Shown: in pieces, positions 2,652 to 62,641 of the stretch
Layout of the letters: the number at the start of each line of letters is the position of its first letter
Position numbering within the stretch: position 1 is the first letter of the stretch
Source: Mesorhizobium sp.
GTDB lineage: Bacteria > Pseudomonadota > Alphaproteobacteria > Rhizobiales > Rhizobiaceae
NCBI RefSeq assembly: GCF_017306545.1
Contig: NZ_JAFKID010000013.1
Span: forward strand, 112,675 to 176,674
DNA: 64,000 nucleotides
Direction of reading: 5' to 3'
Translations under genes and position numbers: made by a program
Notes under the pieces: generated by a model
Database searches by the model: none
What the model saw: only the letters and a program-made list of their open reading frames with translations
What the model was told of the DNA's origin: nothing

Positions 2652-2801
2652 GCGTACACCCACCCCTAGCCCCTCCCCACACGGGGGAGGGGAACTTCGC
2701 GGCGCTGCTACGACCTGTCGATGTTGGCTTATTTGGGATGAACCGGTGGCGTCGGCGTCTCCCTCCCCCGTGTGGGGAGGGGACAGGGGTGGGGGTGCGC
2801 G
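2652..2801. repeat. palindromic intergenic repeat, family A, copy 1
   Basis: Two inverted arms of about 40 bases, built around CCTCCCCACACGGGGGAGG (left, 2652-2694) and CTCCCTCCCCCGTGTGGGG (right, 2758-2801), enclose a loop of about 65 bases. It lies between the convergent truA and acyl-CoA ligase genes. The right arm, with its lead-in GTCGGCGTCTCCCTCCCCC, recurs almost unchanged near 62597. Transcribed, it would fold into a long hairpin and may also act as a terminator for both genes. Confidence 0.8.
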
Positions 2802-29110: not shown

Positions 29111-29126
29111 GGTGAGCCGTGCCGCC

Positions 29127-29644
29127 GTCCCCCTCTCCCTTGAGGGGAGGGTGGCCCGAACGGCCGGGAGGGGTCCGAGCGGCCGTGCGCCGTCGTTTCA
29201 CTTCGACCCGCGCTCAGGGAGGATCGTAGGAATGCCTCGTACCCATATCAGCTTCGAAATGAGGCAGAAGGCTCGTGCGCTTCGTCTGCGTTCGACGAAG
29301 GCTGAATCCCTGCTTTGGTACGAACTGCGCTTGTTCAGATCTGAAGGTTTGATCTTTCGTCGTCAACAGCCGATCGGCCCCTATATCGTGGACTTCGTTT
29401 GCTCATCAGCCCGGTTAGTCGTCGAGGTCGATGGTGATTTTCATGAAACCGATGCCGGAAAGCGTCACGACGCCAATCGGGATTCCTACCTGCACTCTCT
29501 TGGCTACTCCATCCTCCGGATCGATGAGCCGGATGTGATGAACAATGCGTGGCACGTCGGCCAGTTGGTGAAGGACGAGGTCGAGGCTGTCGCCACCGAC
29601 CCCTCCCGACCGCTGCGCGGCCACCCTCCCCTCAAGGGGGAGGG
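29127..29644. mobile_element. candidate inverted-repeat cassette carrying a DUF559 gene (family B ends)
   Basis: The left end (29127-29176: CTCTCCCTTGAGGGGAGGG, then TGGCCCGAACGGCCGGGAGG) and right end (29598-29644: CCCTCCCGACCGCTGCGCGG, then CCACCCTCCCCTCAAGGGGG) are inverted near-copies of about 47 bases. Between them lies a single DUF559 nuclease gene at about 50 percent GC. It has the general shape of an insertion sequence but no known transposase. No target duplication is evident. It sits between two acyl-CoA dehydrogenase genes. Confidence 0.45.
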
Positions 29645-29666
29645 AAACGACGGAGCAACTCTATGA
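29232..29666 (+). CDS. DUF559 endonuclease-domain protein
   Basis: The 144-residue protein has a restriction-endonuclease-like fold, related to Vsr. Visible core: AESLLWYELRLFRSEGLIFR, RQQPIGPYIVDFVCSSARLV and VEVDGDFHETDAGKRHDANR, with the V-E-x-D-G-x-x-H motif holding the likely metal ligands, then LGYSILRIDEPDV. ATG at 29232 begins MPRTHISFEMRQKARALR, close to the usual start; a longer frame upstream only translates repeat DNA. The last 20 or so residues (RPLRGHPPLKGEG) are encoded by the right-hand repeat, and the stop overlaps the next gene as ATGA. GC is lower than its neighbours (30 of 60 at 29341-29400). The function is unproven. Confidence 0.85.
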   Translation: MPRTHISFEMRQKARALRLRSTKAESLLWYELRLFRSEGLIFRRQQPIGPYIVDFVCSSARLVVEVDGDFHETDAGKRHDANRDSYLHSLGYSILRIDEPDVMNNAWHVGQLVKDEVEAVATDPSRPLRGHPPLKGEGNDGATL

Positions 29667-34552: not shown

Positions 34553-34698
34553 GTCCCTCCCCCTTGAGGGGAGGGTGCCGCCCGAAGGGCGGTGGGAGGG
34601 GGCCTTGCGGCAGTACGCCGACCCCTTTTGCGTCGGAGCAGTTGAGGTGACCCCTCCCGGCTCGCTCCGCTCGCCACCCTCCCCTCAAGGGGGAGGGG
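34553..34698. repeat. palindromic repeat, family B, empty copy
   Basis: Left arm (34553-34602: CTCCCCCTTGAGGGGAGGG, then GCCGCCCGAAGGGCGG) and right arm (34649-34698: CCCTCCCGGCTCGCTCCGCT, then CCACCCTCCCCTCAAGGGGG) are the same ends as the DUF559 cassette at 29127-29644. They enclose only about 46 bases with no gene. It lies between the FadB and thioesterase genes. Confidence 0.8.
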
Positions 34699-51274: not shown

Positions 51275-51418
51275 AACCCCCTCTCCGTCGCAGGCTCCGC
51301 CCGCGCCACCTCTCCCCCGCTTCGCGGGGGCGAGGAACTGCCAATCGCGAACGCCTCGGTTCCTCGCCCCCATGGAGTGGGGGAGAGGTGGCGCGCGAAG
51401 CGCGACGGAGAGGGGGCC
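51275..51418. repeat. palindromic repeat, family D, paired inverted copies without a gene
   Basis: Forward copy 51275-51341 (CCCCCTCTCCGTCGC, then GCGCCACCTCTCCCCCGC, TTCGCGGGGGCGAGGAA) and inverted copy 51358-51418 (GGTTCCTCGCCCCC, then GGGGGAGAGGTGGCGC, GCGACGGAGAGGGGG). They are separated by about 16 bases and lie between glcE and DUF559. A third forward copy is at 51852-51919. Confidence 0.85.
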
Positions 51419-51919
51419 GCGGCCGTCACGATGCGCGATCTTTGCCAGCTTTGGCCATGACGAAGCGCAAATCGGCGGAGATGATGTCCTCGGCCAACCG
51501 CCCCTCAACCGCGGCCAATATCGTTTCGCAAACGCCTGGCATGTGCTTCAACGCATCGGCGCTCCAGAAGCGCAGCACAGAATAGCCTTTCGCTCGCATG
51601 AATTCGTCACGTTGTCGGTCATAGTCGTTGTCAGCATGCTGACTGCCGTCCAATTCCACCACAAGCTTGTGCTCGCGACAGACGAAATCAGCGAAGTAAG
51701 GACCGATTGGCACCTGACGTGCGAATTTATAGCCGCCGAGCCGCTTGGCCTTTAATTCGTTCCAGAGAATTGCTTCGGCCATGTTGTCGCCATGGCGAAG
51801 TCGGCGGGCACGGGCGATTCTTTCCGGTGAGCGACGGCTTCGCTGATCGGGAGCCCCCCTCTCCGTCGCGGGCTTCGCCCGCGCCACCTCTCCCCCGCTT
51901 CGCGGGGGCGAGGAACCCA
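51358..51919. mobile_element. candidate inverted-repeat cassette carrying a DUF559 gene (family D ends)
   Basis: The inverted copy at 51358-51418 and the forward copy at 51852-51919 flank a DUF559 nuclease gene, repeating the design at 29127-29644 but with a different repeat sequence. The cassette sits between glcD and glcE. The DUF559 N-terminal residues are encoded by the right-hand repeat. I see no transposase and no clear target duplication. Confidence 0.45.
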
Positions 51920-51941
51920 GGTCGTGTGATGCCCTCGCCAT
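51426..51941 (-). CDS. DUF559 endonuclease-domain protein, inserted in the glc operon
   Basis: The 171 residues. The ATG at 51939-51941 shares a base with the glcD stop (TGATG arrangement), giving coupled translation; residues about 8-30 are translated repeat DNA (SSPPRSGGEVARAKPATERG). The domain proper begins at RIARARRLRHGDNMAEAILW, followed by KFARQVPIGPYFADFVCREH. LVVELDGSQHADNDYDRQRD holds the E-x-D-G-x-x-H nuclease motif, and GYSVLRFWSADAL follows. Same family as the gene at 29232. GC is 31 of 60 at 51601-51660, lower than glcD and glcE. Nuclease activity is inferred from the fold family only. Confidence 0.85.
   Translation of the reverse strand: MARASHDLGSSPPRSGGEVARAKPATERGAPDQRSRRSPERIARARRLRHGDNMAEAILWNELKAKRLGGYKFARQVPIGPYFADFVCREHKLVVELDGSQHADNDYDRQRDEFMRAKGYSVLRFWSADALKHMPGVCETILAAVEGRLAEDIISADLRFVMAKAGKDRAS
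51852..51919. repeat. palindromic repeat, family D, third copy
   Basis: GCCCCCCTCTCCGTCGCGGG, then CTTCGCCCGCGCCACCTCTC and CCCCGCTTCGCGGGGGCG: a direct copy of 51275-51341. It begins 22 bases from the glcD stop and is translated as part of the DUF559 N-terminus. Confidence 0.85.
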
Positions 51942-62492: not shown

Positions 62493-62641
62493 GCGCCCCC
62501 ACCCCTAACCCCTCCCCACTGGGGGGAGGGGGATTTGGTGGCATTGCCACGATGCACCAAGCTTGGCGACTTTGGGCGAAAAGGCGGTGTCGGCGTCTCC
62601 CTCCCCCGTGTGGGGAGGGAACAAGGGTGGGGGTGTGCGCC
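62493..62641. repeat. palindromic intergenic repeat, family A, copy 2
   Basis: The left arm 62493-62532 (GCCCCCACCCCTAACCCCTC) and right arm 62597-62641 (CTCCCTCCCCCGTGTGGGG, then GGGAACAAGGGTGGGGGTG) are inverted. The right arm and its GTCGGCGT lead-in match 2752-2801. It occupies the first half of the hisS-hisZ gap. Confidence 0.8.

Follow-up and report, generated by a model that had tools for sequence, protein, structure and literature searches.

A DUF559 gene enclosed by two inverted palindromes in a 64,000-nucleotide stretch of Mesorhizobium sp. DNA (hereafter, the window) exemplifies a two-sided association between palindromic repeats and genes of this family that extends across bacterial phyla. 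Within the genus, protein phylogeny and arm comparisons indicate that each nuclease lineage keeps its own repeat family even where the genomic site changes. The locus is probably one copy of a one-gene selfish unit, composed of a Vsr-like nuclease (DUF559/YcjD) and its inverted cognate palindromes, whose spread the nuclease would drive.

The cassettes of the Mesorhizobium window

The gene in question (29232..29666, forward strand) is assigned a proposed ATG start in a frame that is open from a GTG at 29112, and a profile search identifies its product as PF04480 (DUF559) with an E-value of 7.6e-30. Its PF04480 score of 103.4 bits, as well as the 119.1 bits of a second such gene at 51 kb, lies above the gathering cut-off of 20.6. 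The family-A terminal palindromes on its 5′ side (29122..29175, forward) and 3′ side (29598..29653, reverse) align over 56 columns with 85.7% identity, rising to 89% within a 35-nt core. These are inverted copies, as the original prediction held, and the description there of near-identical ends was generous; the GC content, put at about 50 percent, measures 55.3% for the gene, against 65.9% for the window and 76-79% for the arms. The gene reads through the 3′ arm, which encodes its last ~22 residues, and its stop shares the tetramer ATGA (29663..29666, forward) with the start of the next gene of the operon, which encodes an acyl-CoA dehydrogenase. Both of these features had been described beforehand, and inspection of the sequences finds them again in genomes G054, G055 and G002. 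The 5′ palindrome has the form CCCTCTCC-loop-GGGGAGGG with one mismatch; this main hairpin is followed by a small second hairpin (GGCCCGAACGGCC) and then by GGGAGGGG, the mirror of GGGGAGGG, and its tail is directed toward the DUF559 gene.

Residues E25, D54, E65, D67 and H71 are invariant in two DUF559 alignments and fit what we take to be a Vsr/EDxHD-like active site. Profile matches among PDB entries include 3hrl (1.9e-34), the mobile-intron protein 3r3p, presumably I-Bth0305I (2.6e-5), PvuRts1I (1e-3) and Vsr itself (1cw0; 0.32). What the protein shares with Vsr and the EDxHD homing endonucleases such as I-Bth0305I is a distant profile similarity; it differs from them in falling below the Vsr family cut-off (TIGR00632; 17.4 bits for the first gene against 97.85) and in having palindromes as its flanks. 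EDxHD enzymes are described as homing endonucleases in PMC3943268.

The second DUF559 gene (51426..51941, reverse; domain 51504-51836) follows the same plan with different repeats, as had been claimed, and its family-B terminal palindromes at 51354..51416 (forward, on the 3′ side of the gene) and 51855..51921 (reverse, on the 5′ side) are 86.6% identical over 67 columns. An extra family-B repeat (51277..51338, reverse), 97% identical to the far arm, forms a gene-less inverted pair with 51354-51416. This pair, at 51277-51395, abuts the second cassette, so that a complete pair stands at one end of the cassette and a lone repeat at the other.

Gene-less pairs also occur elsewhere in the window. 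A family-A pair in cassette orientation occupies about 145 bp at 34555..34697, and two pairs of family-I-like repeats lie at 2652..2800, where the tails face outward, and at 62493..62639. The host genome carries three DUF559 genes, each with its own repeat family (the third being that of C14), and the family-A hairpin pattern, allowing at most three mismatches, matches it 142 times against 0 for the reversed pattern; part of these matches belong to family I, whose hairpin is common to family A. Thirteen miniature elements of the host, including that at 34555..34697, were considered as deletion products of cassettes, an origin that was rejected: two of the 13 exceeded the 99th percentile of control similarity to the cassette inner sequence, and the elements as a group did not differ from controls (Mann-Whitney p=.30).

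Two-sided association of repeats with DUF559 across phyla

The arms of families A to I share a common order of pyrimidine tract, loop, purine tract, second loop and mirrored purine tract (in which A may be T), and the second loop often holds a hairpin of its own. Of the 98 genus arms, 96 contain this mirror motif; among controls it occurs in 8 of 448 random windows and survives shuffling in 1 of 98 arms. The tail is directed toward the gene in 123/128 genus cases and 117/135 named cases. Tails thus face inward in the genus cassettes and outward in many gene-less pairs, so that the gene does not simply sit inside a gene-less pair.

The genus set was composed of 20-kb regions around DUF559 matches from 20 genomes of the genus, each in one or two contigs, together with the host and five host control regions; its 82 matches are domain matches of at least 60 bits in a purpose-built profile, with broken genes included, one locus (L162) counted twice and weaker matches left out. 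Within 230 bp of these, a stricter form of the motif lies on neither side in 3, on one side in 30 and on both sides in 49, against 21566, 1256 and 29 of 22851 controls. The three matches that lack it carry family-G arms, with a second loop that exceeds the length admitted by the scan. Among cross-phylum named loci, which rank as the top 80 of 540 in similarity to the DUF559 alignment, the corresponding counts are 2, 19 and 58 of 79, against 4589, 275 and 5 of 4869 controls. A further sample of 150 genomes from the phylum, drawn separately, contained 46 with a match, and 41 of these lie beyond the genus. From that non-genus group 25 loci were scored, one per genome, and they divide as 0, 6 and 19 (control 395, 13 and 7); of the 16 left out, 15 have E-values above 1e-5, mostly in long frames, and one a value of 1.2e-14.

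A stricter definition of arms, at least 30 bp long and at least 80% identical, leads to the same association. Such arms enclose 47 of the 82 genus domain matches (16/29,520 control windows) and 49/79 in the set of 80 named loci (7/6,263 control), and a looser scan finds 51 of 75 testable named loci enclosed. By their record titles, the enclosed loci include members of Alpha-, Beta-, Gamma- and Deltaproteobacteria, Chloroflexi, Nitrospirae, Melainabacteria and Pirellulaceae, many being metagenome-assembled; at least one is doubtful, since an arm of L206 is short and non-palindromic. Conversely, 49 of the 58 inverted-pair clusters spaced 200-1200 bp within 1.65 Mb enclose DUF559, in regions mostly chosen around DUF559 and with one locus, L095, contributing two clusters; the other nine do not enclose it. 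An initial flank test had found an inverted pair scoring at least 45 at 16 of 30 full-length loci, a sample biased toward top matches, and its cross-locus control was discarded because orthologous loci had compromised it.

Other genes are rarely bracketed on both sides, whether small (1/340 in one set and 0/60 in the other) or larger (8/706 and 0/68). The survey with controls therefore bears out the expectation that the repeats are commoner at DUF559 than near other genes, and by a wide margin in both the genus and the cross-phylum set. With crude, ORF-based gene ends, DUF559 itself is two-sided in just 16/79 and 25/69, a low count explained by ORFs that run through the repeats. As nearly all sampled relatives have a repeat beside the gene, the nuclease is suggested to help the repeats spread.

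The association is not uniform. At three syntenic DUF559 sites (0, 3 and 4) a full inverted pair is present at 1 of 29 matches, and all 33 unflanked genus matches have the motif on at least one side in the looser scan; these syntenic groups are possibly domesticated copies. Four loci (L196, L253, L119 and L242) each contain two DUF559 genes or pieces close together, with repeats between them. On two Sinorhizobium plasmids (L258 and L266) a complete gene-less pair stands on each side of DUF559, giving a pair-gene-pair order, and in S. meliloti Ak57 these flanking pairs are 114 bp long and 96% alike.

Nuclease lineages, repeat families and genomic sites

The DUF559 matches were grouped into 21 sites by shared flanks, and repeat families were labelled by eye and with purpose-written regular expressions after the arms had been viewed. 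A maximum-likelihood tree of the 67 full-length matches among the 82, 38 of them flanked, was built on few columns and leaves 19 forks open. Its clades track repeat family and not genomic site. Family A (7 rows; support 100/100) spans sites 2 and 11, family F (97/93) spans sites 5, 8 and 16, and family G (100/100) spans sites 13, 14 and 17. Rows of family E, from sites 5, 7, 12 and 19, belong to a single group of 13 (96/95), which includes G and two unflanked rows as well. Single sites likewise host several families, each with its own nuclease lineage (C and D at site 1; A, H and I at site 2; E and F at site 5). One exception, L133 at site 3, was labelled A by pattern and differs in both arms and protein; it is mislabelled and was kept.

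Pairwise identities agree with the tree. Proteins of the same family at different sites have a median identity of 0.75 (47 pairs), compared with 0.45 for those of different families at the same site (35 pairs), 0.86 for pairs alike in both respects (38) and 0.43 for pairs that differ in both (583). The nearest neighbour from a different site belongs to the same family in 22 of 38 rows, against a mean of 4.6 and a maximum of 13 in shuffles, a test in which families confined to one site are unable to score. At the level of sequence, then, nuclease clade and repeat family are shown to be coupled across sites, and the notion that the gene and its cognate repeats form a unit is strengthened. The gene is also under purifying selection, with median dN/dS values of 0.04-0.19 per flanked family, drawn from 1 to 18 usable pairs each (a single pair in three of eight families) after pairs with saturated dS or dS <0.05 were left out.

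Gene-less copies are dispersed in the genome, and their number follows the gene in some families. Dispersed copies were counted in 21 genomes, with cassette arms subtracted, for families A, C, D and G of the nine (B, E, F, H and I being set aside). Genomes with the cognate gene hold more of them for A (p=.013), C (p=.013) and G (p=.024, with three genomes carrying the gene), in one-sided tests that treat broken copies as presence and are uncorrected for phylogeny or for the four comparisons. Family D shows no such relation across the 21 genomes (p=.60), and its copies are present in genomes that lack the D gene. In E. coli, 37 sampled chromosomes with ycjD hold 15-31 matching places (median 22, counting the ycjD locus itself), whereas 22 chromosomes without it hold 2-23 (median 6; p=1.2e-8, uncorrected for phylogeny and with one plasmid row dropped). 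Three O157 rows without ycjD hold 15 places, and five other ycjD-less rows hold 16-23. Family-G repeats and cassettes cluster in G115:C23, G055:C31 and G005:C1 at 1.37-1.51 Mb (one contig or ~140 kb), as would be expected if copies landed nearby or if the host region could itself move.

The presence of cassettes differs between species, and DUF559 is not fixed at the window site among relatives, in keeping with the original prediction. The best 30 loci from 146 genus genomes comprise four full cassettes, three gutted cassettes in which both repeats and scraps of the gene are retained, four solo left repeats, one pair of another family (B) with scraps, and 18 loci without a recognisable repeat of these kinds. 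The gutted cassettes are those of G116, G008 and G097, to which a reading of L285 adds G033. The solo left repeats are those of L044, L051, L057 and L058, two of which keep the hairpin part only, and in all four the stretch behind the left repeat runs straight into the next acyl-CoA dehydrogenase gene. The record at this site is mostly one of decay by deletion. In L037 (G115), a family-B pair occupies the position at which relatives have the family-A cassette, with A-like scraps beside it, so that repeats of different families use the same spot. At the 51-kb site, four of 30 loci carry DUF559, and the others have B remnants or family-F gene-less pairs.

Loci that lack the cassette were thus found when relatives were aligned, and G042, the closest of the best 30 by two flank searches, is empty at the window site; a base-precise empty site for a DUF559 cassette was not obtained in the window-site, 51-kb or Sinorhizobium/Shinella comparisons. 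For a gene-less pair such a comparison is available, since G015 reads GTTCCTTCGCG|CGAAGGAACG and G059 has a family-F pair between the same letters, which indicates that gene-less pairs are discrete units. Shinella, compared with Sinorhizobium at ~82% identity and with a junction not resolved to the base, lacks the DUF559 block together with its flanking repeat pairs. E. coli was considered as a source of a clean empty site and was rejected, because the three ycjD-less strains compared carry next to sapF a multidrug efflux gene, of the eef operon according to PMC12817139. No movement, excision or target-site duplication of a DUF559 cassette was seen in the compared loci. The idea of a one-gene mobile cassette is strengthened as regards the unit, through the coupling of clade and repeat family, with no excision, new insertion or cleavage observed, and the earlier interpretation as a whole is partly supported.

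Known repeat systems and competing explanations

Recognition, cutting and copying may all be ascribed to the nuclease. It would recognise its cognate repeat when the latter is single-stranded and folded into a hairpin or triplex, for example at the replication fork, and would cut at or beside it. Repair by copying could then bring the pair of repeats, either together with the gene or by itself, to further sites, akin to the manner in which a homing enzyme or a RAYT transposase spreads its own flanks. Such homing-like cutting and copying at a folded repeat is preferred because the protein is akin to homing enzymes and no Y1 transposase was matched in the host. RAYT was itself considered as the driver of the repeats and ruled out, as PF01797 (Y1_Tnp/RAYT) has no match in the host genome, the sole genome examined.

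The unit is nonetheless laid out like the RAYT/REP elements, and is built from unrelated parts. In both, one gene lies between two inverted palindromes, gene-less copies are dispersed, and gene and repeat coevolve (as PMC2817692 describes for RAYT/REP/REPIN); copy number follows the gene in some families, here A, C, G and that of E. coli, and not D. The enzyme here is of the PD-(D/E)XK type, unlike the Y1 HUH transposase of RAYTs (PF01797), and the arms contain a third, mirrored purine tract and have a GTAG, GTGG or CGTC tetramer near their end in 17 of 98 cases, a count with no control run.

Several observations count against nuclease-driven spread: the predominance of decay at the window site, the behaviour of family D, the ycjD-less E. 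coli rows with 15-23 places, the match of only 2/13 miniature elements, the near absence of full pairs at sites 0, 3 and 4, the outward tails of many gene-less pairs, the fact that no cassette was seen to move, and the mismatch-repair role proposed for a Caulobacter DUF559 protein (PMC12907096). Some of these would suit an account in which another enzyme spreads the repeats and DUF559 is retained or inserted beside them, or is cargo inside their pairs. This account is unlikely, though it would accommodate the large excess of gene-less copies over cassettes (142 hairpin matches against three DUF559 genes in the host), the family-D copies in genomes without the D gene and the presence of up to 23 places in ycjD-less E. 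coli. It is harder to reconcile with nuclease clades and repeat families that stay coupled across changes of site, with a link that recurs across many phyla and that other genes seldom show, and with a host in which no Y1 transposase was matched.

Autoregulation or repair, in which a structure-specific or Vsr-type nuclease binds the flanking repeats to control expression or limit damage and the spread has another cause, is a doubtful alternative. Caulobacter VsrA, a DUF559 protein, is needed to drive the SOS response when the cytosine methylase is missing, according to the same article (PMC12907096), and both the low dN/dS and the one-sided motifs of the syntenic groups would be expected of such a role. 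The inverted copies on both sides, the several families per site and the single families at several sites look instead like mobility. That the repeats are no more than G+C-rich intergenic hairpins or terminators of the usual kind, found next to the gene by chance, is very improbable, since, common as they are (0.27 motifs per kb in the genus regions and 0.66 in the named loci), both sides are occupied in 49/82 and 58/79 cases against about 0.1% of control windows, and the motif survives in 1/98 shuffled arms.

Nuclease-driven spread may also bear upon the BoxC/PIT triplex repeats, whose presence in E. coli has been recognised since the 1990s. Like the genus arms, these repeats (TM-ECO) consist of a C-rich tract, a G-rich tract and a mirrored G-rich tract; the genus arms, which could likewise fold into a triplex, differ in that their second loop is longer and often contains a hairpin. 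The strict TM-ECO pattern with a 3-nt second loop matched at none of the 82 genus domain matches, even with two substitutions, and near named domains it occurs exactly in 10/84 and with up to two substitutions in 26/84. The genus arms are accordingly relatives of BoxC in design and not members of the same sequence family. In L254, the copy of BoxC next to E. coli ycjD (DUF559) has the same sequence as numbers 9, 16, 19 and 22 in Table 1 of PMC4666352. Only one flank of E. coli ycjD bears such a repeat. The gene is present in laboratory E. coli K-12. Judging from the map position of fabI, number 9 of the table, at 29 minutes, is presumably the ycjD/fabI copy.

The same 2015 survey reports 23 copies of the triplex motif in E. 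coli K-12 MG1655, one form occurring 3610 times in 262 proteobacterial genomes and a link to genome instability; the TM-ECO triplex formed in vitro and an in vivo footprint did not support it, and its authors found no transposase, integrase or mobility activity near the sites (PMC4666352). DUF559/YcjD proteins could be the missing mobility enzymes of these repeats, in which case they would constitute pan-bacterial one-gene selfish elements whose ends are recognised as a triplex or hairpin and not in the form of duplex inverted repeats, and gene-less copies would account for much rhizobial palindromic DNA as well as E. coli BoxC; this broader proposal is close to evenly balanced, tilting slightly against. 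Among the open-access matches listed, covered by title and the start of the abstract, none links DUF559 to palindromic or triplex repeats, and an earlier mention is possible. Under this proposal one nuclease family becomes the candidate agent behind the formation, spread and instability of BoxC/PIT repeats and of related palindromes in rhizobia and other phyla, and DUF559, a common family of unknown function, gains a role that can be tested. If true, it would define a class of element in which a restriction-type fold takes the role of the transposase.

The RIME/ABC mosaic elements of rhizobia are intergenic elements with two palindromes, and the arms of the S. meliloti cassette resemble the RIME/ABC type; we know of no link of RIME to DUF559. 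Phage records were also searched. The DUF559 query matched two of 50,697, so that the gene is not chiefly phage cargo, and a 41-base BoxC query matched three.
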